This document shows, piece after piece, positions 11,057-59,823 of a stretch of 64,000 nucleotides of DNA (the first letter of the stretch is position 1; every line of letters begins with the position of its first letter). Position numbers and translations under genes: made by a program. The DNA is from Corynebacterium resistens DSM 45100 (GTDB taxonomy: Bacteria > Actinomycetota > Actinomycetes > Mycobacteriales > Mycobacteriaceae): positions 2,356,001-2,420,000 of the forward strand of contig NC_015673.1 of NCBI RefSeq assembly GCF_000177535.2. Reading direction: 5' to 3'. A model generated the notes under the pieces. The model searched no databases and had not been told where the DNA came from. It saw only the letters and a list, made by a program, of their open reading frames with translations.

Positions 11057-12766
11057 TTAGAGCTGCCGTTTTGCATTCGGCGCTGCTTGTTCAGGGCTCA
11101 GCGCGTAGGTCTTGCCAGGGTTCAAGATGCCCGCGGGATCCAGCTCGCGCTTCACAGCTTGGAGCATTGCGATCCCCAGTCCGCCGACTTCGAGCCCCAT
11201 CCACGGCAAGTGGTCAGTACCGACGGCGTGGTGGTGGGTCACGGTGCCATTGTGGGTTGCCATCGCCTCTGACGCCGCCGTCTTTGCCTTCTTCCAGCGC
11301 TCCTCAGGGTTTTCGCCAGCATCGGCGACAACGGTGAAGTACAAGGAACAGCCCTCGGCATAGACATGAGAAACATGACACATGATCAAGGCCGGCGAAC
11401 CATCCGCAACCAATGCGCGAGACAGAGCATTGCCCACGGCTTTCTTCAATCGCGGCACATTAGACCAATCCGTTGCGGTTTCCAAGGTCTCGCACAAGGC
11501 TCCCGCATCGATGAGCGAATCGCGCAGGACCGGCGCGCCAAAGCGCCCTTGTTCCCACTTCCGGGCGGGACCCTCGCCGAGAGAAACTCCACCATGAGCC
11601 AACATAATTGCGCGTGTCTCCGCATGACGGGATTGCGCATGTTGGGTGGTGCCTTCGAAAACGGTCAGCGCCAAACATCCGGTGTGCTGGGATTCATCTT
11701 GTTCCCCGATGTTGTCTGTGCTTGTCAGGTTCACACTGGATTCGATCTCATCCGACAAACGCATGACCGTCGGGCCGGCTCCGGTTTGTTCCACATCCCG
11801 CAGAGCATTCACACCATCTATGAACGTTGGGAAGCTAAATGCTTCATACAACTTGGTTTCTGGAATTGGGTGAACCCGAACGCGCACCTTGGTGATAATG
11901 CCCAAAGTGCCCTCCGAACCGAGGAATAGCTGCTTCAATGCCGGCCCCGCGGCAGTCGCCGGGGAAGCCTGCCCAGCTTCAATAATGCCTTTCGGGGTGA
12001 CCACGGTCAGGGAGCGGACCATGTCATCGAAACGGCCATATCCCGCGGAGTTCTGCCCAGAACTGCGGGTCGCGGCGAAGCCACCAATCGTAGCGTAGGG
12101 GAAAGATTGTGGGAAGTGGCCAAGCTGCAATCCCTCTTCGCTCAGCAGCATTTCCGCATGCGGGCCGGATAGCCCCGCACCCAGCGTTGCCAAGCCCGAT
12201 ACCGGATCCACGTCTTCCAATTGATCGAAGCGAGCCAAGTCCAAACTGATGACTGCGCGATGGCCACCGTCAACGGGATTCAAGCCGCCCACGACGGAAG
12301 TTCCGCCACCAAAAGGCACAACTGCGATCTTTTCCTTCGTGCAGTACTCCAAAATGCTCAGCACTTCGTCATCGGTGGCGGGTGCAACCACCATATCCGG
12401 AGCAGCTATTTCCCCATCAGTACGCCAATCCAGCAGATCCAGATAGCTCTTCCCACGGGCGCGGGGCATACGCTGCTCGTCATCGGATGAGACGAAGGCC
12501 TCGCCAACAATTTCTGCAAAAGCAGTGCGGTCCGCCTCGGTTGTGCGGGGGGCGGACAGTTGAATGCGGGCAGCGGGGCGTCGAGGTAAAGAACCCTGCA
12601 CGCCCAGTAGTTGGCCGAGCATCTTTTTGATGGAATCGCTCAGAGGCTTAGCTTCATCTTCCGTACCCCAGAGATTGAAAACCATCGGAGGCACCGGCAG
12701 CGAATTATGCGGTGCGCGATCGATAGCGGGATTGGAAACCTGATCGGCCCTGTGGTTGTCACTCAT
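11057..12766 (-). CDS. FAD-binding oxidase, alkyl-dihydroxyacetonephosphate synthase-like
   Basis: A 569-residue FAD_binding_4 (PCMH-type) flavoprotein. The FAD domain shows VVPFGGGTSVVGG near residue 150 and FLGSEGTLGIIT near 285; the C-terminal domain carries HHHAVGTDHLPW, which matches the His-rich motif of alkyl-DHAP synthases, and ends in the LDPAGILNPGK segment common to glycolate/D-lactate oxidase relatives. Actinobacterial members are often next to glpD, as here. Ether-lipid synthesis is not established in this genus, so an oxidase of a hydroxy acid or glycerol derivative is equally possible. A TAAACT box 7 bases before the ATG supports this start and leaderless expression. Confidence 0.8.
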   Translation of the reverse strand: MSDNHRADQVSNPAIDRAPHNSLPVPPMVFNLWGTEDEAKPLSDSIKKMLGQLLGVQGSLPRRPAARIQLSAPRTTEADRTAFAEIVGEAFVSSDDEQRMPRARGKSYLDLLDWRTDGEIAAPDMVVAPATDDEVLSILEYCTKEKIAVVPFGGGTSVVGGLNPVDGGHRAVISLDLARFDQLEDVDPVSGLATLGAGLSGPHAEMLLSEEGLQLGHFPQSFPYATIGGFAATRSSGQNSAGYGRFDDMVRSLTVVTPKGIIEAGQASPATAAGPALKQLFLGSEGTLGIITKVRVRVHPIPETKLYEAFSFPTFIDGVNALRDVEQTGAGPTVMRLSDEIESSVNLTSTDNIGEQDESQHTGCLALTVFEGTTQHAQSRHAETRAIMLAHGGVSLGEGPARKWEQGRFGAPVLRDSLIDAGALCETLETATDWSNVPRLKKAVGNALSRALVADGSPALIMCHVSHVYAEGCSLYFTVVADAGENPEERWKKAKTAASEAMATHNGTVTHHHAVGTDHLPWMGLEVGGLGIAMLQAVKRELDPAGILNPGKTYALSPEQAAPNAKRQL

Positions 12767-12802: not shown

Positions 12803-14545
12803 ATGAATCGCATTGCCAATGCTACTTTTCTGGCTAATCAAACAACCCGAGCCATGCGAGGCTACGAGCGTTCTCACGAGGCTTCATTCAGCTACGAAGG
12901 AGCCACTCTCTCACCACAGCGACATGCCAAGTTGCTGGAAAAATTGCGCGCCGGAACAAAGCCGCAAGGCAGCGCCGAATCTAGCGCGCCCCACTATGAC
13001 TTAGTGGTGATCGGCGCCGGAGTTACCGGAGCAGGTGTAGCACTGGATGCGTCCACACGCGGATTAAGCGTGCTTCTGGTGGACAAAGAAGATTTAGCAT
13101 TCGGTACATCCCGCTGGTCTTCGAAGCTGGCTCACGGCGGTTTGCGTTATCTAGCCAGCGGAAACGTTGGTATTGCCCGGCGCAGCGCGGTAGAGCGTGG
13201 CATCCTCATGGAAGTCACGGCCCCGCACCTCACACGTGCCCTGGGGCAGGTAGTTCCCGTGATGTCGAAATTCTCCGCATTGAATAATGTGCTGCCGCGC
13301 TTGGGATTTTTCGCTGGCGATGCGCTGCGTATTGCTGCGGGCACGTCAGGCAAGACGTTGCCGCGCTCCCGGACGATTTCAGCTCGACGAGTCGCGGAGC
13401 TGTGCCCTGCCGTCGATCGTCGCAATGTGAAGTTCGGCTACCTCAATTATGACGGTCAACTTATTGATGACGCCGCCTTGGTCACCGCGCTCGCGCGCAC
13501 GGCTGGGGGTTTCGGCGCTGATGTATTGACGCACTGCCGGTCGGAATCCGTGGATGATCTGCGCGGTAACGGCTCGGTTAATTCAGCTGGCGGGAATGCT
13601 GCCGTCCACCTCAATGTAGAGGGTGAAATTCTTACTGTGAATGCCTCCGCGGTGGTGAACGCCACCGGTGTGTGGGCAGGTGATCTGGATGCGACCGTGA
13701 AGGTCACACCGTCCCGCGGCACCCATTTAGTCGTTACCGCTGAGAAGCTGGGGAACCCCGAAGGCGCGCTGACCGTGCCTGTACCCGGCGCGACCAATCG
13801 CTTCTGCTTTATCCTGCCTACCCAGTTGGGGCGTTGCTACATCGGTTTGACCGATGAACAAGCGGAACTCGAGGACGTGCCCACCGCACCCGAGGAGGAT
13901 GTGCAGTGGATTCTGGACGTGGTGAACCAGGCGCTGCTGGTAGACCTGACCACGGATGATGTGATTGGCACGTTCGCTGGACTGCGTCCGTTGGTGGAGT
14001 TCGCGGAGCCGGGCAAGGTGGCGTCGAACCAAGAAAACAGTGCGAACGACGAGAAACACACCGCGGATCTGTCGCGCGAACATGCGATTTTGGTGCGTGG
14101 TCCGCTGGTAACAGTGACCGGCGGCAAGTTGACCGAGTACCGACTGATGGCCGAGCAGACGGTGGATCGGGTGCTGGCGGAAGGTCTGATCACGAGGGCG
14201 GATATCGGTCCGTGTGTAACGAAGGAGACACCGCTGATTGGTGCACCTGCGAGGCCCGAGCAGACCGCGGCGTTCAGGATGTCCGATGAATCGATGGGCG
14301 CGGCAGCTACCGCGGAAACGAACAGCGATGCAGATCCGGGCAGCTCGATTGCGCGCCCCGATGAACCAGTGGTTCCAGGGCTTGCGGTAACTCGTGGGCA
14401 GCTGAGCTTCGCAGTGACCCACGAGGGCGCGCGGACGGTATCCGATATTTTGGATCGTCGCACGCGAATCGGGTTGGTGCCGGCGGATCGCGCGGCGGCG
14501 GAACCGGTAGCGCGGGAGGTACTCGCAGCAGCAGGGTTGGGTTAG
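12803..14545 (+). CDS. glpD: Glycerol-3-phosphate dehydrogenase (FAD-dependent)
   Basis: A 580-residue FAD enzyme oxidising glycerol-3-phosphate to dihydroxyacetone phosphate and passing electrons to the quinone pool. The dinucleotide-binding motif VVIGAGVTGAGVALDA is near residue 70, and the family signature GTSRWSSKLAHGGLRYL follows. TGVWAGDL and the C-terminal helical domain (EGARTVSDILDRRTRIGL) are also typical. The ATG at 12803 is set by the TACGTT box 7 bases upstream; longer in-frame starts run into the divergent gene. Length is normal. Pairing with an alkyl-DHAP-synthase-like oxidase points to shared control of three-carbon or glycerolipid metabolism. Confidence 0.92.
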   Translation: MNRIANATFLANQTTRAMRGYERSHEASFSYEGATLSPQRHAKLLEKLRAGTKPQGSAESSAPHYDLVVIGAGVTGAGVALDASTRGLSVLLVDKEDLAFGTSRWSSKLAHGGLRYLASGNVGIARRSAVERGILMEVTAPHLTRALGQVVPVMSKFSALNNVLPRLGFFAGDALRIAAGTSGKTLPRSRTISARRVAELCPAVDRRNVKFGYLNYDGQLIDDAALVTALARTAGGFGADVLTHCRSESVDDLRGNGSVNSAGGNAAVHLNVEGEILTVNASAVVNATGVWAGDLDATVKVTPSRGTHLVVTAEKLGNPEGALTVPVPGATNRFCFILPTQLGRCYIGLTDEQAELEDVPTAPEEDVQWILDVVNQALLVDLTTDDVIGTFAGLRPLVEFAEPGKVASNQENSANDEKHTADLSREHAILVRGPLVTVTGGKLTEYRLMAEQTVDRVLAEGLITRADIGPCVTKETPLIGAPARPEQTAAFRMSDESMGAAATAETNSDADPGSSIARPDEPVVPGLAVTRGQLSFAVTHEGARTVSDILDRRTRIGLVPADRAAAEPVAREVLAAAGLG

Positions 14546-14631
14546 ACACACAGCTGGTACTGATCAAGCGAACGGCAAGGCCGTGGCACCGAAGGCCTTC
14601 GTCAAACGATCAACTGTCATAGAATCGACCA

Positions 14632-15252
14632 ATGCAAATTTCGCGTCCTGCAACGATATCAATCATCCTGTTCGAGGGATTCGAACTTCTCGACGTGTTT
14701 GGCCCAGCGGAGGTGTTTTCACATACGCCCGGCTTGTCGCAACAATTTTTGTCCCCTGATGGACAGCCTGTAGCTAGCTCTCAAGGGGTACAGGTAATCC
14801 CGGATGGCGCTTACGCCTCTCATGAGGGCGATACCATTTTGATTCCAGGAGGAGCCGGAACACGTTCTTTGGTGAACGACCCAGGGTTTCTCGAACAACT
14901 GAAAACATTAGTTGAATCCTCTAACATCGTGTGCTCTGTATGCACAGGATCAGCGCTGCTCGCCGCCACAGGTGCCCTAGATGGATACTCCGCAACCAGC
15001 AATAAGTCTGCGTGGGAGTGGGCTAGCTCGTTTGGTGCCGACATCACCTGGCAGAGATCGGCCCGATGGGTTCACGATCGCGACCGATGGACGTCATCGG
15101 GAGTAGCCGCAGGTACAGACATGGCTGTGGCGTTCGTTGCTAAGTTCTTTGGCCACGGCACTGCACACAAAGTCGCGCACGACATAGAACTCACGGTAAA
15201 CGAGGATCCTTCAAACGATCCTTTTGCAAAGGAGCCCACCTCATCCTCATGA
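14632..15252 (+). CDS. DJ-1/PfpI family protein (isonitrile hydratase-like)
   Basis: A 206-residue member of the DJ-1/PfpI superfamily. ILFEGFELLDVFGPAEVF is the typical N-terminal segment of the AraC-domain or isonitrile-hydratase branch, and VCSVCTGSALLAATG is the nucleophile elbow with the conserved cysteine. There is no DNA-binding extension, so it is an enzyme-like stand-alone member of unknown substrate. A TAGAAT box (14620-14625) sits 6 bases before the ATG. It is the last chromosomal gene before the genomic island, whose left end begins 17 bases after its stop codon. Confidence 0.85.
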   Translation: MQISRPATISIILFEGFELLDVFGPAEVFSHTPGLSQQFLSPDGQPVASSQGVQVIPDGAYASHEGDTILIPGGAGTRSLVNDPGFLEQLKTLVESSNIVCSVCTGSALLAATGALDGYSATSNKSAWEWASSFGADITWQRSARWVHDRDRWTSSGVAAGTDMAVAFVAKFFGHGTAHKVAHDIELTVNEDPSNDPFAKEPTSSS

Positions 15253-15267
15253 GGATCAAGGGCATAC

Positions 15268-15306
15268 TGACCCGCCACCGCCTTACTGCTGGTGACGGGT
15301 CATTTT
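15268..15306 (+). terminator. Rho-independent terminator (captured tRNA-Thr terminator copy)
   Basis: A stem of TGACCCGCCACC and GGTGACGGGTCA (11 of 12 pairs) with an 11-base loop is followed by ATTTT on the plus strand, directly after the DJ-1 gene. The same hairpin lies next to the intact tRNA-Thr at 25171-25200, so this copy was displaced by the island insertion and may now end the DJ-1 transcript. Confidence 0.7.
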
Positions 15307-15350
15307 GGAACCGCTTGTGAGAATCGAACTCGCGACCTTTTCATTAAGAG
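15270..15350. repeat. Left attachment-site repeat: displaced 3' half of tRNA-Thr
   Basis: These 81 bp match 25171-25251 in the same orientation with 5 mismatches. They contain the last 45 bases of the minus-strand tRNA-Thr, from the anticodon loop through CCA, plus the tRNA terminator. Identity stops exactly in the anticodon loop. This is the expected product of integration into a tRNA gene, with the intact gene kept at the other end. The anticodon base is mutated here (TTAAGAG against TTACGAG), so this copy is non-functional. Confidence 0.85.
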
Positions 15351-15655
15351 CCAAATCCCCGTTCGGGAAAGCAAGGATCTCGCGGGCTTGTGCAGAATAT
15401 CGCGTTCTTCGCGCAGTTGAGAGACTTCCTTTTCTAGCTGGCGAAACCGTTCGGAATCATTCGCTGCTTGGGCATTATCATGCACGGCTTTAATGCGCGC
15501 ACGTCTTCCGGTGCCGTGCTTCTTGATCCAAGAATGAAGCGAGGCACGGTTGATCCCAAGCTGTGTTGATACTGCGTTCAGTGAGAGGTCCTCATTGTTT
15601 TCTTAGGGAGCCACGGCATCGCATTTGAACTGTTCGGAGTACTAGACATGGTGGT
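15351..15655 (-). pseudogene. IS3-family OrfA remnant
   Basis: Reading the minus strand gives YSEQFKCDAVA, an in-frame stop, then ENNEDLSLNAVSTQLGINRA (helix-turn-helix) and a coiled-coil leucine zipper QLEKEVSQLREERDIL, which is the layout of an IS3-family OrfA. The start codon is one base out of frame, the stop interrupts it, and the C terminus is diverged or cut at the tRNA repeat. On its upstream side (about 15695-15720) GTCTGGACC...TGGTGGACACC looks like an IS3 terminal repeat. No matching OrfB follows, so the element is dead. Confidence 0.7.
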
Positions 15656-15699
15656 AGGTTACCTTTCTTCCCAGCTCGACTGGGATGGATATCAGGTGT

Positions 15700-16002
15700 C
15701 CACCAAAAAAGGTCCAGACCCTTTCATTAACCGGGCTGTCTTGCCGCGACCAATATAAAAAACCTTCACGGTTCATCACGTGCCATAGTGTGCGGATGCC
15801 GTAGACCGAGAAATTCTCCGCATGGACGCGTTGCATCTCCGGGGATGAGCAGGGCAGTGCTTAAGGTCCTTGCACTGAGAACGCGTGTGGTGGCTTTTTG
15901 GTAGCCACGTGAGGTGATGATTCGACGATCTGCTTGCTTAAAGACTCGGCAGATGGCCTCGACCCCAACCTGATCTTTGTACGTGTCGATGTAGGAGATC
16001 AT
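15700..16002 (-). pseudogene. IS3-family OrfB, N-terminal fragment with two frameshifts
   Basis: The minus strand encodes MISYIDTYKDQVGVEAICRV, the usual OrfB N terminus, then after a one-base shift near 15840 QRVHAENFSVYGIRTLWHVM, and after a second shift at a T run the expected RDKTARLM-like segment. The DDE catalytic core is missing because another IS3 end begins at about 15720. This fragment belongs to a different IS3 copy from the OrfA remnant below it, since OrfB lies upstream of OrfA here, the reverse of the normal order. Confidence 0.7.
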
Positions 16003-16080
16003 GTGGTCGTGGGTTGGTCGAGTTCCACAGCAAAAAGCCGATGCAGTCTTAACAATCCCGTTTGCTCGTTTCAGCTCACG

Positions 16081-16088
16081 GCTTCTGG
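16081..16088. repeat. Target-site duplication of the IS256-family element (left copy)
   Basis: GCTTCTGG here is repeated at 17530-17537 directly after the right end of the element. An 8-bp duplication is the normal signature of IS256-family transposition. Both copies lie within an IS3 OrfA remnant on the minus strand. Confidence 0.8.
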
Positions 16089-17529
16089 GGGAGTGTCAGG
16101 AAGTTTGTGTGTGAGGCTCTGATCTAGAAGGAGTTTCACCGATAATGACTACGGTGTCACCGAAGAAAGGCCATGACCCGGCGAGGGTCAACGAGATCAC
16201 CGAGAAGCTGATGGAAAATCCTGAGCTCGCCAGCTTGAAAAGCGAGCTGTCGACGTCCGCTGATGATGCCAGCGATTTGGTCAAAGGCCTGTTGCAGGCA
16301 TCGATCAACGCTGGTCTGCAGGCGGAGATGGATGCGCATTTGGGCTACGGACATTCCGACCGTAAAACCAAAGCCCAGGTTGAACCCACACACGGCGGCA
16401 ATCACCGCAACGGGTCGTATACCAAGACCGTCCATTCTGGCTATGGCGCAGTGGAAGTGACCGTGCCCAGGGATCGTGCTGGCACGTTTACCCCGAAGAT
16501 GGTGCCCAAGGGAGCACGCCGGCTGACAGAGCTCGACGACATGATCGTCTCGCTGTATGCCGGTGGGATGACGGTGCGCGATATTCAGCACCACCTTACG
16601 ACCACGCTTGGGGTGGATGTGAGCCCGGATACGATCAGCACGATTACCGATGCGGTGTTAGACGAGGTCATGATCTGGCAGAACCGCCAGCTCGACGAGT
16701 TTTACCCGGTGATCTTCCTCGACGCGCTCCGCGTCAAAATCCGTGACGGTCACCGCGTGGTCAACAAAGCCTGTTACATGGCTGTTGGCATCGACATCGA
16801 CGGCATCAAGCACATCTTGGGATTGTGGATCGCTGAAAATGAAGGCGCCGCATTCTGGGCATCGGTGTGCGCGGATCTGGCCAACCGCGGTGTCCAAGAC
16901 GTGTTCATCGTCTGCTGCGACGGGCTGAAAGGCCTGCCGGAAGCCGTGGAGGCAACCTGGCCAAATTCCATGGTGCAAACCTGCATCGTGCACCTGATTC
17001 GGGCTGCGAACCGGTGGGTGTCCTACCAGGACCGCAAATCTGTCTCCCGGGCGCTGCGTGAGGTCTACACGGCCGCAAACGAGGACACCGCTCGTGCTGG
17101 ATTAGATGCTTTCGAGGCCTCAGAATTGGGCCAAAAATACCCGCAGTCGGTCAAAGTCTGGCGCGACGCGCGGGGGCGGTTCATACCGTTTCTGCAGTTC
17201 CCGCCGGCGGCACGCCGGGTGCTCTACACCACCAACTCGATCGAATCGCTCAACGCTGAACTACGTAAAGCTACCCGTAACCGCGGGCAATTCCCGAACG
17301 ATACTGCGGCGCTGAAGACGCTGTGGCTGATGATCTGCAATATCGAGGACAAGCGCGCTGCCCAGCGAGCGAAGAAAGCGAAACGCGACATCGAATGCAA
17401 CGGCTAAATTGAAGGAGCGAAAGCCACCGGATGGAAACAAGCCATCAACCAACTAGCCGTGGCTTACCCTGACCGATTCGCGGATTACTTGTAAACCAAG
17501 CCCCCGCACACAAACAATCGGACACCCTC
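16089..17529 (+). mobile_element. IS256-family insertion sequence, complete with terminal repeats
   Basis: The element is 1441 bp long. Its left end GGGAGTGTCAGGAAGTTTGT and the reverse complement of its right end GAGGGTGTCCGATTGTTTGT are imperfect inverted repeats of about 30 bp. An 8-bp direct duplication GCTTCTGG flanks it. It holds one transposase gene with a premature stop. It sits inside the C-terminal part of an IS3 OrfA remnant, so it is younger than that element. Confidence 0.85.
16145..17494 (+). pseudogene. IS256-family transposase with in-frame stop
   Basis: The frame runs 420 codons to a TAA at 17405-17407 and then continues in the same frame for 28 more codons (IEGAKATGWKQAINQLAVAY and on) to a second TAA at 17492-17494, giving the normal family length of about 449. 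The catalytic DDE residues are present before the stop: FLDALRVKIRD, VCCDGLKGLPEA and NSIESLNAELRKATR. A single base change (for example AAA to TAA) would explain the break. The shortened protein lacks only its last helix, so it is not certain that activity is lost. Confidence 0.8.
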
Positions 17530-17650
17530 GCTTCTGGGCGCAGACGATTGAGTTCTTCTTCCATCCGGCGCCATTGCTAGCAAGTGGTAGTGCTCTGCGA
17601 GTGAACGTTCTGGATGCATAGCGCGTGCTTCGAGCAACCGCCTCAATCAC
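17530..17650 (-). pseudogene. IS3-family OrfA remnant, part upstream of the IS256 insertion
   Basis: On the minus strand this stretch reads MEEELNRLRPE up to the target duplication; on the other side of the IS256 element the minus strand continues at 16088 with SRELKRANGIVKTASAF, the C-terminal end of OrfA, and then the OrfB start at 16002. Joining the two sides restores an OrfA-like leucine-zipper region, though with a frameshift. The remnant degrades beyond about 17640. Confidence 0.55.
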
Positions 17651-17734
17651 CGCACCTCACTGTCGCCACTATCCACGCTTCACCCCGTCATGTGTCTGCG
17701 CTCGCGTGCCCTACCCCGCTGGTCCGCTATCGCT

Positions 17735-17770
17735 ACGGGCAAGTAGCCAGGTGGATGCAGTGTTGTCGAT
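17735..17770 (+). repeat. Left arm of a perfect 36-bp inverted repeat bracketing the MMPL-RibB-MarR cassette
   Basis: The reverse complement of these 36 bases is identical, base for base, to 23374-23409. The next base on each side differs, so the match has sharp edges. The arms are 5.6 kb apart and enclose the whole five-gene cassette and a small gene fragment. The 15-mer CTATCGCTACGGGCA overlaps this arm and occurs again, in the same orientation, just outside the right arm. Confidence 0.75.
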
Positions 17771-17794
17771 ACGTGCGCGTGGCGTAGCGAAATA

Positions 17795-17962
17795 TCACCC
17801 AAACACCAACATCGCTCCATCCGGAATGTCCAGAAGGCTGCCCAGGATCACTTCATCATGCTGCTCAGTAGAAGCAAACCCACGCAACTCCGAAACTAAA
17901 CGATGACCTAGATAAAGGTTGGGCACTGTCCAGAAACCTACGCCTACGAACAACCACTTCCA
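17795..17962 (-). pseudogene. Short open frame, probable C-terminal fragment of an unknown gene
   Basis: The minus strand has a 55-codon open frame starting WKWLFVGVGFWTVPNLYLGH and ending GAMLVFG before a stop. No ATG or convincing ribosome binding site precedes it; only an internal TTG could start it. It looks like the tail of a longer protein, but I do not recognise the family. The rest of 17650-18080 shows no gene. Confidence 0.35.
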
Positions 17963-18080
17963 TCAGTCATACCGTTCCAACATTCCAACTTCCTCAACGC
18001 ATCGCATACCTACGCACGTCTAGTCGTTGTCCGAGGAATGCATCAGTTGCACTGGGTAGATGTTCACAATGTCAGCGTTA

Positions 18081-20240
18081 TCAAATAGCCATGGGGATTG
18101 ACTCTGGGCATCGGATGTCATCGTCCGCACCTCCTCCCAAATCTGCCGTAATACTAGGTGATCCACCCCACACACTGGGGCCGATGAGTGTGAGAACCGA
18201 GGGCAACAGGAGTGGGCGGACAATCAACGCGTCCATTGCCACGGCCATGGCGAGACCCAAACCAATTTCACGCACGATGCTGATCTCCGCAACCATGAAC
18301 GAAAGAAATACTCCGATCATGATGATCGCCGCGAAGATTACCAACCGCGATGTCTTCGCGATTCCGAGAGAAATGGCATGTCTATGACGCGCGGTCTTAA
18401 CAAACTCTTCTTTCATACGGGACGCCATAAGCACCATGTAGTCCATCGATAGGCCAAAGACGATGGCGAAGATAACGATCGGGGTGACCGAGTTGATGGA
18501 ATCACCTGTCACGGCTTTCCATATAAAGGACAACAGCCCCATCGCCGCAGAGACCACCAGTCCGTTGAGGGCAACCGCGAGGACGGGCAGGCGCCACGAG
18601 CGGAATGCCCAGCCCAGCAGGGCCAACGAGATGAGCACCACGGCTGCGATGATCCAGGGAATGGAGCTTTCGACCAAGCGGTCGAAATCATCCCCCTGGG
18701 CGGTGGCTCCCGAGACGTAGACATCAGCCTGGTCGCCTGTGAGATCTTTAATATCTCGGATCATCTCGTGGGCGTCATCAGAATCCGGCAGTCCCGTCGA
18801 GGTGACGAGCACGCGAGAGTAATTCACTGACTGTTGCGATCCCGATAGTGGGTAGGGGGAGAACTTTTCCTCTGGCGTCCCCGGGACAAGCACCTGATCG
18901 ACGTTGCTGACGCCACCAAGTTGGTCGGCAAATGCTGTGGCTTTCGCCTGCACGTCTTCAGCTGATTCGCCCGGTGCCCCTTCGAAGGTCACGCTCGTGG
19001 GGAACAAGGCGCGGGCATCGAGTTCGGACTGGATCGCTTCGATGCCCTCACGGGAATCCTTGCCCTCTGGGAGGATCGACGCGCTGGCGACTGGGACCTG
19101 CAGCTTGATTCCCGCCAACGGTACGGCACATACGAGCAGTGGCACGACGACCGCGAGAGCCACGATGGCTGGTTTGGTCAGTGCGGCGCGGAGCATCGGT
19201 GAATCTTTTTCCTCCTCGATAACCAGCGCGTCGTGGAAGCCCGGAAGTTTGCCGAAGAAGAGTCGGTCGCCGAGCACGGTGATGATGGCCGGCACCAGGG
19301 TGGACAGAGCAAGCAGCGCAATCGTCGTCACAATGATCCCTGCCAACGCAATAGAAGAAAAGACCATATTCCGAGCGATAAACAGAGCGCACAAGGCGGC
19401 GATGACGCTCAGGCCGCCAAAGCGGATGGCATGCCCCGCGGTATGCGTCGCCAGGCGCAATGCCTCCGGTTTGTCCACCCCAGCGTGGATGTTCTCTTTG
19501 TAACGAGCAATGAGGAAGAGACAATAGTCCACGCTCACGGCCAAGCCGATCAATGATGCACCCGTGACGTACATGTTCGACACATCCATGAACTGAGCCA
19601 AGACCGTCCCGGCACCTTGTGTTCCCGCCAGGCAGATGCCTGCCGTGATCAGCGTGACCACGGTCGGACCGACGGCGCGGTAGATGAACAGCAGCACGAG
19701 GATGAGCAGCGGGAAAGCGATCATTTCCGCGTGCAGGGCATCTTGCTGGGACTGAATATTCAGGTCATAGTCCAGTGCCGCAGCGCCCGTAACGTGATTG
19801 TCTACCGCGGTGCCGTCGACAGCCTCGGCGACTTTGTCACGGAGTGTGGGCACCATGTTCTGTGTCGTCGTGTTGTCGGCGTCGAAGCCGACTTGGACAA
19901 TCTGCGTCTGCCCGGAGTCAGAGCCGAGCTGCGCGACTTGTCGTCCATCCGTCACATACTCAACGTGTGGCAGCTCGTGGATGGCAGTTTCCACGGCATC
20001 CAGTGTTGAAGAATCAACGGTCTCGTCGGAGGTGAGCACGACGGAGAGTTCATTGTCGGCATCGCCGAAGGCCTCGCGGTTGACGTCTTGGCCGGCGAAC
20101 GATTGACCGTGCTGGTCATTGAAGCCGCCGGCTTTGACGGCGTCGTTAAGATGCCATGCGCCGACCGCGCTGAGGACGAACACTACTGCCCACAAGAGAA
20201 TCACGAGCTTGGCGTGACGCTGAACAAACGTGAGAATCAT
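18081..20240 (-). CDS. MMPL family (RND superfamily) transporter
   Basis: A 719-residue inner-membrane exporter with the two-fold plan of MmpL proteins: one N-terminal helix, an extracytoplasmic porter domain (about residues 35-170), five helices, a second domain (about 385-530) and five more helices. The proton-relay Asp-Tyr pairs are visible in SVDYCLFLIARYKE and LSMDYMVLMASRMKEEF. MmpL proteins export lipids or lipid-linked compounds, and some confer drug efflux. It is the last gene of a minus-strand run ribB-plsC-mmpL, starting 3 bases after the acyltransferase stop, so an acylated lipid is a plausible substrate (inference). Confidence 0.88.
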   Translation of the reverse strand: MILTFVQRHAKLVILLWAVVFVLSAVGAWHLNDAVKAGGFNDQHGQSFAGQDVNREAFGDADNELSVVLTSDETVDSSTLDAVETAIHELPHVEYVTDGRQVAQLGSDSGQTQIVQVGFDADNTTTQNMVPTLRDKVAEAVDGTAVDNHVTGAAALDYDLNIQSQQDALHAEMIAFPLLILVLLFIYRAVGPTVVTLITAGICLAGTQGAGTVLAQFMDVSNMYVTGASLIGLAVSVDYCLFLIARYKENIHAGVDKPEALRLATHTAGHAIRFGGLSVIAALCALFIARNMVFSSIALAGIIVTTIALLALSTLVPAIITVLGDRLFFGKLPGFHDALVIEEEKDSPMLRAALTKPAIVALAVVVPLLVCAVPLAGIKLQVPVASASILPEGKDSREGIEAIQSELDARALFPTSVTFEGAPGESAEDVQAKATAFADQLGGVSNVDQVLVPGTPEEKFSPYPLSGSQQSVNYSRVLVTSTGLPDSDDAHEMIRDIKDLTGDQADVYVSGATAQGDDFDRLVESSIPWIIAAVVLISLALLGWAFRSWRLPVLAVALNGLVVSAAMGLLSFIWKAVTGDSINSVTPIVIFAIVFGLSMDYMVLMASRMKEEFVKTARHRHAISLGIAKTSRLVIFAAIIMIGVFLSFMVAEISIVREIGLGLAMAVAMDALIVRPLLLPSVLTLIGPSVWGGSPSITADLGGGADDDIRCPESIPMAI

Positions 20241-20243
20241 GAG

Positions 20244-21488
20244 TTATGGCCTCCCGTGTGCTGCGCCGGTGAGCTGGGCTAAGGCACCAGAGATCTTCTC
20301 TTTGCGCGCGACTCCTCGGGGATCAGCAGCATCAATGTTGTGTAGTGCGTTTTCGTAGGCGTCGACGGCGCCGGAGGTGTCACCGGCGGCAGCCAGAGAC
20401 TCCGCAAGCCCCACATAGGCCTGTGATGTCATCTGCCCTTCGCGGGCGACGGCACGCTTGAAGTGTGTGCTCGCTTTGCTTGTGCCGCCTCCCATCCATG
20501 GCGGCAGGACGAGAGAGCTACGGCCAGCGAGGTAGGCCGCGAAGTCGTAGGACGAATGCAGGTCGGAAAGTCGATCGGCTTTTTGATTCACGGCAGCGGC
20601 ACGCACCATCGTGCCCACGGGAGTCAGTGAGTTTAAGGCGCGGAAGCCGTCGATGCGTGTTTTCTGTACCTGCAAGTCCAAGCGCCGTCGAGACGTTTTA
20701 TCTGCAATTCTCAACAGAAGCTGAATCCGGGAGACGACCTCGGCGGGCAGGTTTCCGTCCACCGTGAGGTTCTCAGCCACCATGGTCTGGGAGAGCGTAA
20801 CCATCCCGTCGAGCGCCTGGCCGGAATCTTTCGCGGTGACGTGACTGGAGCGGTACTTCAGACCAGAGATCTTGTCGAAAGCGTCATCGCGCATGGCGCG
20901 CGCTCGGGCACGTTCATCACCACTGGTCGGCACCGTTAACGGTTGACCAATCGCGACAGAGAGCAACCGGCGGCGGGGAATAGACGCACCCTTCGGAAGC
21001 ACCTCGGCCAGGCCGGTCATCCCGACGGGAATGACGGGCGTCTTGTTGGCCAATGCCATCCGGAACGCTCCGGACTTAAACGGGAGGAGCCCATCTCCCG
21101 TGTTGCGGGTGCCTTCGGGGTAGAGAACGAGTGTGTCGTCACGATCCAGGACGTCGCGGGCACGTTGGAAGATTTCTTCGCTGGGCGCGTTGCGGTCCAC
21201 GGGGTAGCAGTCCATGGATTCGTGCCAGACGCGCGACAAGAAGGTGTCGAAGGCTTCCGCCTTTGTCGGGAACCAGACGCGGCCGGGGCGAACAGACTCG
21301 GCGAGGGTTTTCATCACGAAGTGGTCCATGTAGGACGAGTGGTTGGCGACGAGAATGACCGGTCCTGTGCGCGGGATATTCTCTAATCCTTCGACATAAC
21401 CGACGTGTCGGAGGACGAGGTCGTGGATGCGAGGGGTCGATATTTTGCGGGTGGATTGCCCGATGCGGGTGGTGTTGTAGTTGACCAT
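20244..21488 (-). CDS. 1-acyl-glycerol-3-phosphate acyltransferase-like (PlsC) with C-terminal helical repeat region
   Basis: A 414-residue protein. The PlsC domain has ANHSSYMDHF (H-X4-D catalytic motif, near residue 48) and YPEGTRNTGDG (motif III). The C-terminal 180 residues are helical and end in a TPR-like unit (AYVGLAESLAAAGDTSGAVD), which ordinary PlsC proteins lack. I start at ATG 21488, 8 bases after the ribB stop; the longer frame would begin inside ribB with a basic, unlikely peptide. It probably transfers an acyl chain to a lipid that the adjacent MMPL pump exports. Confidence 0.85.
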   Translation of the reverse strand: MVNYNTTRIGQSTRKISTPRIHDLVLRHVGYVEGLENIPRTGPVILVANHSSYMDHFVMKTLAESVRPGRVWFPTKAEAFDTFLSRVWHESMDCYPVDRNAPSEEIFQRARDVLDRDDTLVLYPEGTRNTGDGLLPFKSGAFRMALANKTPVIPVGMTGLAEVLPKGASIPRRRLLSVAIGQPLTVPTSGDERARARAMRDDAFDKISGLKYRSSHVTAKDSGQALDGMVTLSQTMVAENLTVDGNLPAEVVSRIQLLLRIADKTSRRRLDLQVQKTRIDGFRALNSLTPVGTMVRAAAVNQKADRLSDLHSSYDFAAYLAGRSSLVLPPWMGGGTSKASTHFKRAVAREGQMTSQAYVGLAESLAAAGDTSGAVDAYENALHNIDAADPRGVARKEKISGALAQLTGAAHGRP

Positions 21489-21496
21489 GGTGACAC

Positions 21497-22249
21497 TTAC
21501 TTCACGCTCGTCAGGGGGGTGGCCAGTGGGGAGCCGTCGGGACGTTGGGTGATCGCGACACCGGCGGCGACCTGTTCTTGGCGGTAGGTGCGCAAGCGTT
21601 CGATGGTGGATAGTGCGATGCCGCGTTCGGCGCACCATTCCACGAGCTGTGGGAGGCGCAGCATTTCGCCGTCGTCGCCGATGATTTCGACGATGGCTCC
21701 CACAGGCGCGAATCCAGCCATGGCGGCGAGGTCACTGCCTGCTTCGGTGTGGCCGATGCGGGTGAGCACGCCGCCCTCGCGTGCCATGAGTGGGAAGACG
21801 TGGCCGGGGCGGTGGAAGTTGCTGGCTACTCCCCCGGAGGCCAACAGGTTGATCGTTGCGGCGCGGTCGGAGGCGGAAATGCCGGTGGTGATACCGAAGT
21901 CGGCGATGGCATCGCAAGAGACGGTAAAGGAGGTGCCGAAGTCGTCTTCGTTGCGTTCGACCATGGGAGCGAGGTTGAGGGTGCGGGCGTGCTCAGCGGT
22001 CATGGGAACGCACAGCAATCCCTTGCCTTGGGTGATCATGAAGTTGACAGTCTCGGGAGTGATCGCTTCGGCGGCCATGATGAGGTCGCCTTCGTTTTCT
22101 CGATCTTCATCGTCGACGAGAACGACCATCTTGCCGGCGGCAATATCCGCGACGATGTCTTCAATGGGAGCCAGGTGGGTTTCTGCACGGAGGCGAGCGG
22201 TGGTCTTGGTGTCGTTGGTCTGTGGAATGTCGGTCAGCGTGCGGGTCAT
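21497..22249 (-). CDS. ribB: 3,4-dihydroxy-2-butanone 4-phosphate synthase, stand-alone
   Basis: A 250-residue RibB that converts ribulose 5-phosphate to the four-carbon precursor of riboflavin. The metal- and substrate-binding motif VLVDDEDRENEGDLIMAAE is near residue 43, and FHRPGHVFPL and HTEAGSDLAAMAG are also conserved. Most actinobacteria use a RibBA fusion; here the GTP cyclohydrolase II half is absent and replaced by about 35 non-homologous residues. AAAGGATC lies 6 bases before the ATG. It is the first gene of a mobile cassette, so it is likely an accessory copy. No FMN riboswitch is visible upstream. Confidence 0.88.
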   Translation of the reverse strand: MTRTLTDIPQTNDTKTTARLRAETHLAPIEDIVADIAAGKMVVLVDDEDRENEGDLIMAAEAITPETVNFMITQGKGLLCVPMTAEHARTLNLAPMVERNEDDFGTSFTVSCDAIADFGITTGISASDRAATINLLASGGVASNFHRPGHVFPLMAREGGVLTRIGHTEAGSDLAAMAGFAPVGAIVEIIGDDGEMLRLPQLVEWCAERGIALSTIERLRTYRQEQVAAGVAITQRPDGSPLATPLTSVK

Positions 22250-22275
22250 GGTCAGATCCTTTCAAGAAATACCCG

Positions 22276-22299
22276 TGACACAACATCATTGTTGCGTCA
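22276..22299. promoter_or_regulatory. 24-bp palindrome, candidate MarR operator
   Basis: TGACACAACA-TCAT-TGTTGCGTCA has arms matching at 9 of 10 positions. It lies 27 bp upstream of ribB and 139 bp upstream of the SRPBCC gene, in the only divergent promoter region of a cassette that encodes its own MarR protein. A plus-strand TATAAT is at 22308-22313. Confidence 0.6.
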
Positions 22300-22437
22300 T
22301 TGGTATTTATAATTCAGACCGGAAAAGCGCTCCATGCGAACGGCAAAGTACCCAACATTGGGGGTAGTTTGTTACATAATTCCAGCTTGATTAGCACCAT
22401 TTCCCTTTTTACTGGGCGGTCACCTATTATCCATGTC

Positions 22438-22863
22438 ATGTCATTAAAGACTCATAATTCCGCGGCTATTACTCTTGAGCATGATCCGTCTATGATTAGA
22501 AAAATCCTGCTCGACATCAGCAATCTCTCCACATGGAACCCTGCCTTCAGCAATATCGGGCCAGAAGATTCCGACGGTGCGCATTCCGTAACCATCCGTA
22601 GCCTCATGAAAGGAAAGTTAACCTACACGCAACCCTCCCCTGACGTCATCACGTTTCATATTGAGATCCCGGGCCTCACCGAAGAATCCACCTTCACCCT
22701 CACCCCAGATTCTCGCGGCACGACGGTCGCCCACACCATCAACCAGCACGGTGTCCTCACCGCCATCATCGGTGACCACGAAGCCTCGCTCGTCCCCCAC
22801 AAGCGCCTGACCCGCCTCGTCCAGACCCTCAACAACTCCTCCCCACACGATATCCCCTCATGA
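22438..22863 (+). CDS. SRPBCC-type (START/polyketide-cyclase-like) lipid-binding domain protein
   Basis: A 141-residue protein with the pattern of a single SRPBCC domain: an amphipathic helix-and-strand start (ITLEHDPSMIRKILLDISNL), a W-N-P turn, and a series of alternating strands ending in a long C-terminal helix. Members bind hydrophobic ligands. The ATG at 22438 follows a TATTAT box by exactly 7 bases; the longer frame from 22300 would run through the promoter region. It overlaps the MarR gene by 4 bases (ATGA), so the two are coupled and the protein may sense or carry the ligand relevant to the cassette. Confidence 0.7.
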   Translation: MSLKTHNSAAITLEHDPSMIRKILLDISNLSTWNPAFSNIGPEDSDGAHSVTIRSLMKGKLTYTQPSPDVITFHIEIPGLTEESTFTLTPDSRGTTVAHTINQHGVLTAIIGDHEASLVPHKRLTRLVQTLNNSSPHDIPS

Positions 22864-23351
22864 ACAAGACCATTGCCGACCACCCTGAAGAGTTCCGCTA
22901 CCTGATCCTCGCCCTCCAACGGCAAGGAAACCGACAACTCAACAATCTCTTTGCACAGCTGGACCTGACCAATTCCCAAGCCGAAGCCATCGAAGTCATC
23001 GGCGCCTACGGCCCGATGAGCACTCGAGAAGTCGGCGATTACCTCGTCTGCGAATCCGGCAGCCCCAGTCGCCTGCTCACCACTCTCGCATCCAAAGGGC
23101 TGACAATAACCTCCCAGTCCACCACAGATAAACGGGCAACCCTCCACGCTCTCACGCCGGCCGGTCGTGAAATGGTTGCCGCAATCACCAATCTCAAGAA
23201 GAACTTCGACGACAGTATCGGTGATGCTCTCACCCATGCGCTCAGCGCTCACCCGGAGGACATCCTCACCCAACTGACCTGTCTACTGACTGACCCCTCC
23301 CTAAGCGCAGCCATGAAGAAGCGCTACCCACACCTGTTCGACAAGCTCTAG
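22860..23351 (+). CDS. MarR family transcriptional regulator
   Basis: A 163-residue winged-helix regulator: helix-turn-helix in MSTREVGDYLVCESGSPSRL, wing segment TSQSTTDKRATLHALTPAGR, and flanking dimerisation helices. MarR proteins usually repress neighbouring operons until a small lipophilic ligand binds. It probably acts on the palindrome at 22276-22299 between this operon and ribB-plsC-mmpL. The right 36-bp inverted-repeat arm begins 22 bases after its stop. Confidence 0.85.
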   Translation: MNKTIADHPEEFRYLILALQRQGNRQLNNLFAQLDLTNSQAEAIEVIGAYGPMSTREVGDYLVCESGSPSRLLTTLASKGLTITSQSTTDKRATLHALTPAGREMVAAITNLKKNFDDSIGDALTHALSAHPEDILTQLTCLLTDPSLSAAMKKRYPHLFDKL

Positions 23352-23373
23352 ATTCCAGTCCCATCGCGACCGG

Positions 23374-23409
23374 ATCGACAACACTGCATCCACCTGGCTA
23401 CTTGCCCGT
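23374..23409 (-). repeat. Right arm of the perfect 36-bp inverted repeat
   Basis: Exact reverse complement of 17735-17770. Its end forms part of a hairpin, TGCCCGT-12 bases-ACGGGCA (23403-23427), which could also end the MarR transcript. See the left arm for the bracketed cassette. Confidence 0.75.
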
Positions 23410-23512
23410 TTCACTATCGCTACGGGCAGTTGCCCTTCAAATTCACCCACACCGTTTGCACATCATGTGCGTCGGGTTACGTTGTGACAAAACAGGTTGG
23501 TTTTTACAGGCT

Positions 23513-23632
23513 CTACCGTCCGTTATTCCGCATCCATTGGCGAATCTGTTTGCGACTCCACTGCACCGGAACAGTGACTAGTTGGCCTTTCATCTTGATG
23601 GTCTTAGTCTCCCCGCTAAACGTAGGCAGTAG
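23513..23632 (-). pseudogene. 3' part of a short open frame cut by IS1249
   Basis: The minus strand reads 39 codons from the IS edge to a stop, including SGETKTIKMKGQLVTVPVQW. On the far side of the IS (25115 down to 25044) the minus strand has ATG plus 23 codons, MRLEESESLLALVASVTFAS and on, ending exactly in frame. Removing the 1411-bp IS would therefore give one 63-codon frame. I do not recognise the protein, and the joined frame could be chance because no target duplication is present. The surrounding stretch 23428-23512 holds nothing I can name. Confidence 0.3.
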
Positions 23633-25043
23633 GGGTTAAGTAGCAAAAAGTGTGTCTGACTTTCAGCATTATTGCTGATCAGAACGGGTAAATCGGGCGG
23701 ATATAAGCATCAAGACCTTATATCCGCCCGATTAGTGTTCAATCCACCGGAATGGCACCCGCATGTGCTAATCGGGGGTTGGTGTGCTTTCCGGGTGAGT
23801 AAAAACAGACCACGATGCCCGATATGCGCTGGGCAAATGAAGAAAAACGGAACCACTACTAAAGGCACAACCAGGTGGCGATGCAAGGACCCGAACTGCG
23901 GCAGTTCCACGACACGAACCCGCACCGACCGCACGCAGACCCGCGACTTTAAAGCCTTCGTCTCTTATGCCACCTCCACAGCAACGTTGTCTGAACTCGC
24001 CCAGCAACAAGGGGTAAGCCGTTGGACACTTGACCGCCGATTCACACCGTTCTGGCTCATCGACATCCCCAACGACGGTGACCCACAGCGCGTCTACGAC
24101 CAAATCTTCATCGACGGCACCTACACCACCGCCGGATGCCTACTGGTAGCCGCAAGCCGTGACCACGTCATCTCCTGGCACTGGGCCAAACGCGAAACCG
24201 CCCACGCCTACACACAACTACTGCGCGGTATCGCCGAACCGTTATGTGTGGTCCTCGACGGCGGACAAGGCGCACTTACTGCGATTAAAGCCTGCTGGCC
24301 GAACGCGATGATCCAACGATGCCTCGTCCATGCGCAACGCGTCATCCGCCGCTACACCACATCACGACCACGCACCGACGCCGGCAAAGCCATCTACGCC
24401 CTGGCGTTGACACTGACCCGTATCACCACCGTGGACCACGCACGCAACTGGACACTACGCCTGCACGACTTCGGACAGGTATTCAAAGCATTCCTCAACG
24501 AAAAAACACCATTGCCCAAAGAACATCGCACGCTCAATAAACAGTGGGAATGGACACATATCCGAGTTCGCAAGGCATACAACTCCCTGCTGCACCTCTC
24601 ACGGAAAGGATGGCTGTTTACCTACCTGCAGCCACCACCAGAAGCACTCGACCCAGCCCGGTGGGCAGCGACTACGAACAGTCTTGAAGGCGGCATTAAC
24701 GCTCAACTCAAACGCATCGCTGATGCACATCGCGGCAGAGCGGGAGAACGGCAACGCAGAATGCTCGGGTGGTACCTGCACGCGAAAACGCAGCTGCCTG
24801 ACGATCCGCTAAAGATCGCCAGGCAGTGCAATTTCGGACAAGATCAACTCGCCAAAGTCAACGATCTTGTCGAAGAAGACCACAACACAGCCGACCAGGA
24901 AGCAGGCCGACCAGCCTTCTACGACAACGCTATCCCAACCGAGTACGAACACTCGATAGGAATCAGAAAAGGCCCCATGAAGTAACAAACCGTGTACCCG
25001 CCCCGCAACACGCGAAACGGACACACTTTTTGCTACTTAACCC
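23633..25043 (+). mobile_element. IS1249-type insertion sequence, copy 1
   Basis: A 1411-bp element with inverted ends GGGTTAAGTAGCAAAAAGTG (left) and the same sequence at the right end. It has the same length as copy 2 at 58396-59806, with an offset of 34763 bp throughout. Flanking 8-mers differ (GGCAGTAG and CCTACTTG), so no target duplication remains, unlike copy 2. It is the last element before the right edge of the genomic island. Confidence 0.88.
23795..24985 (+). CDS. IS1249-family transposase, copy 1
   Basis: A 396-residue transposase of the IS1249 type (IS256 family). A zinc-ribbon-like N terminus (CPICAGQMKKNGTTTKGTTR followed by CKDPNC) precedes a helix-turn-helix and the DDE core with D in IFIDGTYTTAG, D in VVLDGGQGA and E in NSLEGGINAQLKRI. 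I chose GTG 23795 because the protein then begins with the conserved SKNRPRC; the frame is open further upstream to 23672. The gene is intact. Confidence 0.85.
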   Translation: MSKNRPRCPICAGQMKKNGTTTKGTTRWRCKDPNCGSSTTRTRTDRTQTRDFKAFVSYATSTATLSELAQQQGVSRWTLDRRFTPFWLIDIPNDGDPQRVYDQIFIDGTYTTAGCLLVAASRDHVISWHWAKRETAHAYTQLLRGIAEPLCVVLDGGQGALTAIKACWPNAMIQRCLVHAQRVIRRYTTSRPRTDAGKAIYALALTLTRITTVDHARNWTLRLHDFGQVFKAFLNEKTPLPKEHRTLNKQWEWTHIRVRKAYNSLLHLSRKGWLFTYLQPPPEALDPARWAATTNSLEGGINAQLKRIADAHRGRAGERQRRMLGWYLHAKTQLPDDPLKIARQCNFGQDQLAKVNDLVEEDHNTADQEAGRPAFYDNAIPTEYEHSIGIRKGPMK

Positions 25044-25170
25044 CCTACTTGCAACACTGGCAAATGTAACACTTGCAACTAAAGCAAGTAAAGACTCTGA
25101 CTCCTCAAGTCTCATTTCCCACGGCAATTACCCCCCCACCTTGTTATCCAGCCCACCGAAAAACAAAAGA

Positions 25171-25200
25171 ACCCGACACCGCATTACTGCTGGTGACGGG
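25171..25200 (-). terminator. tRNA-Thr terminator
   Basis: On the minus strand ACCCGTCACC, an 11-base loop and GGTGTCGGGT (9 of 10 pairs) are followed by TCTTTTGTTTTTC, immediately after the CCA end of tRNA-Thr. A displaced copy lies at 15268-15306. Confidence 0.75.
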
Positions 25201-25251
25201 TCATTTTGGAGCCGCTTGCGAGAATCGAACTCGCGACCTTTTCATTACGAG
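25171..25251. repeat. Right attachment-site repeat inside tRNA-Thr
   Basis: These 81 bp match 15270-15350 in direct orientation with 5 mismatches. They run from the tRNA terminator into the anticodon loop (TTACGAG, 25245-25251). The intact tRNA shows that this is the integration end that restored the gene. The direct copies bound about 9.9 kb. Confidence 0.85.
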
Positions 25252-25282
25252 TGAAACGCTCTGCCGACTGAGCTAAAGCGGC
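25207..25282 (-). tRNA. tRNA-Thr (anticodon CGU)
   Basis: A 76-base cloverleaf on the minus strand, starting GCCGCTTTAGCTCAGTCGGC and ending GCGGCTCCA with encoded CCA. The anticodon stem TTTCA/TGAAA encloses the loop CTCGTAA, so the anticodon is CGU and the tRNA reads ACG (Thr). The T arm GCGAGTTCGATTCTCGC is canonical. It is the insertion site of the genomic island at lower coordinates. Confidence 0.95.
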
Positions 25283-25445
25283 GCATACAAGATGTTCTCG
25301 TGGCGGATGGTTGAGCGCTGCGGGCTCTCGCAATCCAGATAGAACTTCAGGTACGAAGCGTAATCCTAGCGGATGGGGTTCATCCGAACAAAACTGATGG
25401 TAGCCCTCCGGCGCTATCCGCTCGCGCTACTCGTCGGCAATGCCC

Positions 25446-26642
25446 CTAGACCACCGCGCAGCATTGCTGCAGGCGCCCAGCCAGCGCCATCAATGCCAAC
25501 TCGGGCTTCACGTTGGACAGCAGACGTTGGCGGCATTCCGTTACCGCGTCAATGCATTGCACCAGCGCTGCCCCTGAATTTCGCCGTGCGAGCTCGCGAG
25601 CCGTCGCAGCCATATCCGGGTGCTGGAATCCACCCACGGGCTCGCCGTCGACAACCGCGCCCGTCGCCACCATCATCGCATCACGGTACAACCCGGCGAT
25701 ATCAATGAGCGCCAAATCCAAACTCTCACTGGATTGGCGGGTGCGACGCATCTTCTGTTTGCGTTCCAGCTCCGCGACCGCACCTGCCGAACCGCGCTGA
25801 GCCTTCGCCGCCCCTTTGCCTTTGGCACCCACACCATAGGCATCCTCCAATTCATCACGCTCACGCTGGTCTTGTGTGGCCAGCAGACTCTCGGCCTCCT
25901 CCTGAGCTTTCGCCACCAACTCCCCTACATAGCGATAAAGTTTCGCGGGTTCATAAACAAGTTGCGGAACTTTCAAAGCCGCAGCTCGCTTCGCCCTCGC
26001 TTTCTCATCGCGTGCCAAGTGCCGTGCCCGGCCGATATGCCCGCCGGAGACTCCCGCGGCCCACTGGGCTTGTTCCTCAGTGAGGGCCAGTGCGGCGTCG
26101 GATAAAAGTACCCCTGCAACCGCCTCCGGCGAAGGAGTAGGGATGTAGACGTGCCGGCACCGCGAGCGCAGTGTGATGGAAATATCCGAGGGGTCCGTAG
26201 ATGGCGCGCACAGCACGAAGTAAGTGCTCGCGGGTGGCTCCTCAACGGATTTCAACAGAGAGTTGGAGCCGGCCGCGTTGAGGCGATCGGCTTGCTCCAC
26301 CACAATCACGCGACGGCGCCCAACCGTGGGCAGCTTGGCCGCATCAGAAATGACCTCACGCACTTTATCCGCATGGATCCACACCCCATCGGTACTTACC
26401 CAAACAACGTCCGGGTGGGTACCCGCCTGCACCATCCGACACTGTTCGCACTGCCCGCACCCGTTATTAGGGCACACAAGGGCGGCAGCAAACGCCTTGG
26501 CTGCAATCGAGCGGCCTGACCCCGGAGGGCCGGTGAACAGCCAAGAGTGGGTCAGGGTCTGCGGATCCACTACAGCCCGCCGCAGCTGTTCACGCACGTC
26601 GGGAGCGGTAATAGTGGCGAAAACGCCGGCGTTGTTGGTCAT
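25446..26642 (-). CDS. holB: DNA polymerase III subunit delta'
   Basis: A 398-residue clamp-loader subunit. Walker A is FTGPPGSGRSIAA near residue 36; a four-cysteine zinc module CPNNGCGQCEQC is near residue 57; the SRC motif occurs in TLRSRCRH; RRRVIVVEQADRLN is the Walker B region. It works with DnaX and HolA to load the beta clamp. Relative to E. coli HolB it has a charged, Gln/Ala-rich insert near residues 240-285, as other corynebacterial forms do. It is divergent from the adenylate cyclase gene, a conserved actinobacterial arrangement. The 163 bp between it and tRNA-Thr show no gene. Confidence 0.92.
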   Translation of the reverse strand: MTNNAGVFATITAPDVREQLRRAVVDPQTLTHSWLFTGPPGSGRSIAAKAFAAALVCPNNGCGQCEQCRMVQAGTHPDVVWVSTDGVWIHADKVREVISDAAKLPTVGRRRVIVVEQADRLNAAGSNSLLKSVEEPPASTYFVLCAPSTDPSDISITLRSRCRHVYIPTPSPEAVAGVLLSDAALALTEEQAQWAAGVSGGHIGRARHLARDEKARAKRAAALKVPQLVYEPAKLYRYVGELVAKAQEEAESLLATQDQRERDELEDAYGVGAKGKGAAKAQRGSAGAVAELERKQKMRRTRQSSESLDLALIDIAGLYRDAMMVATGAVVDGEPVGGFQHPDMAATARELARRNSGAALVQCIDAVTECRQRLLSNVKPELALMALAGRLQQCCAVV

Positions 26643-58203: not shown

Positions 58204-58280
<77 letters not shown>

Positions 58281-59806: not shown

Positions 59807-59823
59807 CTATCGGTTCAGTCAGA

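Follow-up and report, generated by a model that had tools for sequence, protein, structure and literature searches.

In the parts of the Islander paper considered here, the anticodon loop is listed as the integration subsite of 2083 islands (PMC4383910), and tRNA islands defined in this way combine a regenerated tRNA gene with a displaced 3' fragment of it. According to the sections covered, a tRNA-Thr gene is the attachment site of prophage CULC22IV of Corynebacterium ulcerans (PMC3164646) and of the pSE211-type elements of actinomycetes (PMC3218068). Here, we analyzed a site of this type in Corynebacterium resistens DSM 45100, namely the 9.9-kb interval at 15270-25251 of a stretch of 64,000 nucleotides (NC_015673.1, positions 2,356,001 to 2,420,000; this whole stretch is "the window", and coordinates without a locus label are positions in it), which is flanked by a direct repeat ending in a tRNA-Thr(CGU) gene. 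The regenerated tRNA, the displaced 3' fragment and the anticodon-loop subsite are shared with the Islander-defined islands; unlike these, the C. resistens site has no detected integrase, and most of its contents are younger than the repeat. Because an integrase gene was not found in the interval, the site is a relic of a known kind and not an island: the 9.9 kb represent an old attachment scar that mobile DNA has since refilled.

The C. resistens DSM 45100 chromosome is 2,601,311 bp long (PMC3350403, Table 1), and the genome studied here (G000 in our numbering, in which G denotes genomes and L denotes loci) is one contig of 2,601,311 bp. The genome paper names two prophages; "genomic island" and "MMPL" have 0 occurrences in its main text, and the locus is not mentioned in the parts examined (PMC3350403). 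The covered sections of the CULC22IV and pSE211 papers do not deal with the C. resistens locus either, and the 26-bp repeat of CULC22IV differs in sequence from the C. resistens repeat (PMC3164646, PMC3218068). In a partial survey of the literature, we found no description of this tRNA-Thr locus.

Flanking repeat and tRNA-Thr gene

A repeat search recovered the direct repeat 15270-15355/25171-25256 (86 nt, 92% identity, spacing 9901), the runner-up family within the same 12 kb being just 30 nt long at 70%. Alignment of the core, 15270-15350 versus 25171-25251, gave 81 bp with exactly 5 differences (sites 6, 13, 41, 49 and 78), as stated in a preliminary description of this DNA. ARAGORN places an intact tRNA-Thr(CGT) gene at 25207-25282 on the minus strand, and Rfam agrees (72.8 bits); the right copy (25171-25251, minus strand), delimited by repeat alignment and folding, comprises a hairpin with a U-rich tail and the 3' 45 nt of this tRNA. 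The anticodon, derived from position 34, is at 25247-25249; with its end at 25251, the repeat stops within the anticodon loop, two bases 5' of the anticodon. The interval thus has an intact tRNA gene at one end, a displaced tRNA fragment of the same strand at the opposite end, and a junction at a known integrase subsite.

The left copy (15270-15350, minus strand) consists of the hairpin and the 3' 45 nt of tRNA-Thr; Rfam reported no tRNA there. It had been described as the displaced 3' half with its terminator, and the half tRNA and the hairpin both stand. In each copy, the 52-nt stretch beyond the tRNA end folds into a hairpin (-20.4 and -25.6 kcal/mol; none of the 200 shuffles was as stable), which is likely to be a terminator; however, a simple terminator scan listed neither hairpin, and the U-rich tail follows the right one only.

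The integrase is indeed missing. The tyrosine-integrase domain PF00589 was not found in the interval, the three matches listed for it in this genome being located elsewhere, and the integrase profile had no match among the window open reading frames (ORFs) of at least 60 aa.

Half-tRNA copies and integrases in other Corynebacterium genomes

The tRNA region was searched in 61 genomes, including 37 of the genus, with counts taken among the matches listed. A second copy of the 3' half, on the 3' side of the gene and on the same strand, was present in 7 of the 37 (G000, G033, G028, G008, G020, G018 and G026). We then examined 32 other genomes, fetching 5.0-44.8 kb on the 3' side of tRNA-Thr, and found a second copy in 10 of them (G033, G028, G008, G020, G018, G026, G240, G112, G013 and G204). 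It should be noted that 10/32 is a biased rate, because the prior search had already pointed to six of these loci before they were fetched. Nine of the 10 copies extend to nt 45-46, and the copy in G204 just to nt 31.

Six intervals of 6.4-39.8 kb (G240, G028, G018, G020, G008 and G026) are bounded by the same 3'-half copy. Among the 13 genomes scanned, a PF00589 domain was detected in all six of these intervals, 0.13-1.6 kb from one end, and was found neither in the short intervals of G033, G112, G013 and G204 nor in the window. The integrases at tRNA-Thr are related yet diverse (28-56% identity), and that of G020 is split in two pieces by an IS256-like ORF. The C. resistens site resembles these six intervals in tRNA gene, junction and side, and differs from them in that they retain the integrase. 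Among selected ORFs of the G240, G028 and G018 intervals, there are matches to repressor-like and to replication- or primase-like families; the selected ORFs of the window interval yielded no gene of this type. In G074 and G245, integrase fragments also occur at a distance of about 0.7 kb to tRNA-Thr(CGT) (L177 11593-11892; L178 7355-7654), and a half copy was not found in the 8.1-8.3 kb examined.

The half copy is 100% identical to the genome's own tRNA half, over 44-46 nt, in five of the six integrase-bearing genomes, compared to 85-93% in the integrase-less G033, G112, G013 and G204. The exception is G240, with 86% identity to its own tRNA half; its displaced half is 100% identical to the tRNA of G000 over 49 nt, and the 3' half of its full gene is a different one. 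This pattern fits a 3' half supplied by the element. Since six integrase-bearing intervals have the same junction, it is well supported that the attachment scar at tRNA-Thr(CGU) was made by an integrase. The insertion into the anticodon loop by an integrase, as originally proposed, is therefore very likely to be right. These observations show that tRNA-Thr(CGU) has been used repeatedly for integration in Corynebacterium.

Age of the scar

Among the matches listed from 242 genomes of the genus, the closest relative by HolB is G033 (92%; next 72%). The holB-type gene (25446-26642, minus strand; name from the preliminary description) is the conserved right neighbor, found beside tRNA-Thr in the fetched relatives. 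In G033, the order is FAD oxidase, glpD, left half copy, 1.24 kb, tRNA-Thr and holB. The first 457 bp, from the hairpin into a remnant of an IS3-family insertion sequence (IS), are 88% identical between G033 and the window. The rest of the G033 gap looks like broken IS sequence, two pieces of which match the IS481 family model below the cut-off. The cargo of the C. resistens interval is absent from G033, which has just a 33% paralogue of its PlsC-type acyltransferase. Contents and repeat, therefore, do not behave as one unit in relatives: in G033, the cargo is missing although the left half and the IS3 remnant are present, so that the repeat and most of the contents differ in age.

In the three 81-bp copies (right, left and G033 left), there are 10 variable sites, and all changes are private (1, 4 and 5, respectively), as expected if the three copies were identical in the ancestor. 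Host genes of G000 and G033 are 80.6-86.2% identical at the DNA level in four genes (holB 80.6%). The scar predates the split of C. resistens and G033, and its contents have turned over since. Of the old, fixed island proposed in the preliminary description, the old event stands, and the 9.9 kb as a single fixed island do not; the left repeat, which was not expected where the island is absent, is literally found there in G033. An attachment scar can thus persist through a species split after its element is gone, and a flanking tRNA repeat neither dates nor delimits what lies between its copies.

Alternatively, the half-tRNA duplicate could stem from IS activity or illegitimate recombination, without an integrase. 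Both flanks are rich in IS, the neighboring G033 pieces match IS481 (again, below the cut-off), and similar IS-like ends, identified by eye, directly adjoin tRNA-Thr(CGT) at its 3' end in G033, G131, G132 and G265 (L045 9320-9393; L095 about 12650-12721; L096; L176). However, the junction is the same as in the six integrase-bearing intervals, and duplication by an IS would not favor that site; we regard this origin as highly improbable.

As an unoccupied reference, we used G147, in which the order is FAD oxidase, glpD, amino-acid permease, single tRNA-Thr and holB. The arrangement predicted for an empty site, a DJ-1 gene followed by a terminator, the complete tRNA-Thr and holB, was not found at the fetched tRNA-Thr loci; the single-copy site of G147 has glpD and the permease instead.

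Cargo module

The cargo spans 5.3 kb and encodes an MMPL-family exporter of 719 aa (18081-20240, minus strand; PF03176, 247.5 bits), a PlsC-type acyltransferase of 415 aa (20244-21491, minus strand; PF01553, 100 bits, with a weak TPR-like C-terminus below the Pfam cut-off), a second, stand-alone RibB (DHBP synthase; 21497-22249, minus strand; PF00926, 254 bits, TIGR00506 above cut-off), an SRPBCC/Polyketide_cyc2-like protein (22300-22863, plus strand; weak, below the Pfam cut-off) and a MarR-type regulator (22860-23351, plus strand; PF13463 above and PF01047 just below the cut-off). Another DHBP synthase domain is encoded at C1:1330231 of the genome.

The cargo is 98.7% identical to DNA of G206 over 5649 bp (individual genes 96.3-99.9%), compared to 69.0% for holB and 73.8% for the neighboring cyclase-like gene of the two hosts. 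The difference between the cargo and these host genes shows horizontal transfer. Because the cargo-G206 identity is far above that of the host genes of G000 and G033, the cargo arrived after the G033 split. Relatives of the acyltransferase (49-100%, over most of the length) occur in 10 of the 242 genus genomes: G000, then G131, G132, G206 (two pieces), G074 and G245 at 96-98%, and G265, G112, G013 and G153 at 49-67%. The cargo of G131 and G132 is a mosaic, with RibB and PlsC at 98-99% and MarR at 76-78%. A horizontally moving RibB-PlsC-MMPL module is thereby documented.

In G206, the cargo is located near tRNA-Ala(TGC), between 702-bp direct repeats (98.6%) that start inside that tRNA, with pieces of a broken integrase beside the repeats (L099 2388-13667). 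Its distance to tRNA-Thr(CGT) is about 0.39 kb in G131 and G132, and a half copy was not found there in 12.5-12.7 kb; in G074 and G245, there is no tRNA within the fetched 20 kb around the cargo. The cargo edges differ among holders, with IS-like ends (by eye), so that no common mobile boundary can be defined.

If the 9.9 kb, present cargo included, had entered as a single integrase island and then become fixed, G033 must have lost most of it. The position of the cargo inside the repeat is consistent with this scenario, as is the same cargo of G206 between tRNA-Ala 3'-half repeats with a broken integrase alongside. Conversely, 98.7% identity to G206 versus 80.6-86.2% for host genes to G033 implies arrival after the split, when the left half was already there, and both lineages share the IS3 remnant at the left half but not the remainder. 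Entry as one island is accordingly very unlikely. The cargo could also have come with a second integrase element at the same tRNA-Thr site, by accretion, and have been stripped later. Reuse of this site across the genus speaks for such an event, and so do the cargo in the tRNA-Ala interval of G206 and its location beside tRNA-Thr in G131 and G132. However, a third half copy was not found in 14500-26500, the window ORFs lack an integrase match, a half copy was not found in the 12.5-12.7 kb of G131 and G132, and the variable cargo edges with IS-like ends also argue against it; we consider accretion unlikely.

Instead, we consider it highly probable that an integrase insertion occurred in the common ancestor with G033, that the element was lost, and that the cargo was gained later between the copies. 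In this history, the ancestor shared by G000 and G033 would have received a tyrosine-integrase element in the anticodon loop of tRNA-Thr(CGU); with the element would have come a matching 3' half and hairpin that restored the gene and displaced the original 3' half leftward. For this step, we observed both halves and the junction, and also found this junction next to integrases in other genomes. IS insertions and deletions would then have removed the element with its integrase, and the useless left half would have decayed independently in each lineage, in agreement with the different private changes and interiors. The C. resistens lineage would later have gained a cargo close to that of G206, with a small element end and IS1249 beside it; the acquisition is evident from identity, and we infer the route.

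Several observations weigh against this history. The right copy of G033 has no hairpin, so the duplication there is seen for the tRNA part only. G147 (HolB 71%) belongs to a species further removed, its hairpin is different, and the permease gene comes before the tRNA. In G093, an integrase is located beside tRNA-Thr, but a half copy was not found in the 9.4 kb examined. Finally, the window has retained neither an integrase nor an excisionase or attP, and we thus infer the original element.

The function of the cargo can be predicted from protein families only. It may be an undescribed pathway, in which RibB would make a four-carbon phosphate, PlsC would acylate a product and MMPL would export it to the envelope under MarR control, and which would move via tRNA-gene islands, with dead scars as repeated landing places (tRNA-Ala in G206; tRNA-Thr, beside or within, in G131, G132 and G000); we consider this reading quite doubtful. 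A defence island was rejected, as none of the five cargo proteins had a PADLOC match. The family of the PlsC-type protein (20244-21491) is small: of the 7994 candidates that were scored, 28 proteins reached E<=1e-20; the sources named are actinobacterial, with one exception labelled Streptococcus thermophilus.

DJ-1 gene

A DJ-1/PfpI-family gene (14632-15252, plus strand; PF01965, 82.4 bits) lies outside the repeat. Its best homologues (60-62%) are located elsewhere, among the matches listed, where none was seen within 25 kb of holB in other genomes (by eye), and the fetched tRNA-Thr loci of other genomes contain no match. In G033, the glpD match and the left repeat are 6 bases apart, including the glpD stop, with no DJ-1 gene between them. 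DJ-1 as a native neighbor of tRNA-Thr was rejected, since it was not seen at the loci fetched from other genomes.

Other mobile DNA between the copies

The IS3-family orfA remnant next to the left copy (15377-15720, minus strand) is 79-80% identical to five longer IS3 matches in G131 and 88% to its counterpart in G033, which matches the IS3 model NF033516 below the cut-off. A possible second IS3 remnant (15766-16039, minus strand) has a sub-threshold match to ALIL (RF01497; 28 bits versus a gathering threshold of 50), which we take to be a marker of IS3 frameshift sites; its ORF has no Pfam match. An IS256-family transposase ORF follows at 16145-17407 (plus strand; NF033543, 387 bits; PF00872).

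A 47-bp stretch at 15349-15395 (minus strand) is 83% identical to chromosomal DNA near 72.2 kb of G000:C1 (E 1.7e-6), where an ORF (L206 1320-2216) matches corynebacterial plasmid replication initiation proteins. The stretch may be a fossil of the plasmid replication-initiator (Rep) gene of the lost element, a weak lead; this match of 47 bp at 83% is the only replication-initiator evidence for a lost element of the integrative plasmid or actinomycete integrative and conjugative element (AICE) type. A 56-bp DNA query found no corynebacterial plasmid, and a Rep search of 40 loci and the window gave, pK43 (L104) aside, a best match of 24% (E 0.18). Plasmid origin of the whole interval was rejected, as its coverage by any one plasmid record was 9% or less in a near-match search. 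The Rep-like chromosomal ORF adjoins an IS6-family transposase.

The cargo is flanked by 45-nt inverted arms, at 17735-17779 (plus strand) and 23365-23409 (93%). The left arm also borders a stretch of about 1 kb on the Corynebacterium jeikeium plasmid pK43, and the right arm, with more of the same element of about 1 kb (23365-23630), is contiguous with the cargo in G206 too. With regard to a composite transposon, only partial copies of this element were seen. Direct repeats at about 25047-25085, resembling the arm sites of the G026 integrase, were considered as attP arm sites and rejected, because across the genus, with G000 and G033 set aside, the best matches are intergenic in G161 and G189, at tRNA-Glu loci without tRNA-Thr. 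They lie in a 126-bp stretch (25045-25170), and 25042-25093 is similar to the intergenic stretch of G161 and G189 (79-81%).

The IS1249-family element at 23632-25044 (plus strand) has perfect 25-bp terminal repeats; its flanking 10 bases differ, and no target duplication was seen. The preliminary description places all mobile remnants of this part of the window between the repeat copies; a second IS1249 copy of the window (58396-59807, 93%) lies outside them, just beside tRNA-Pro(CGG) at 58204-58280, and 14 equal-score matches (71% to IS1249) across G000:C1 indicate a multicopy related IS in the genome.

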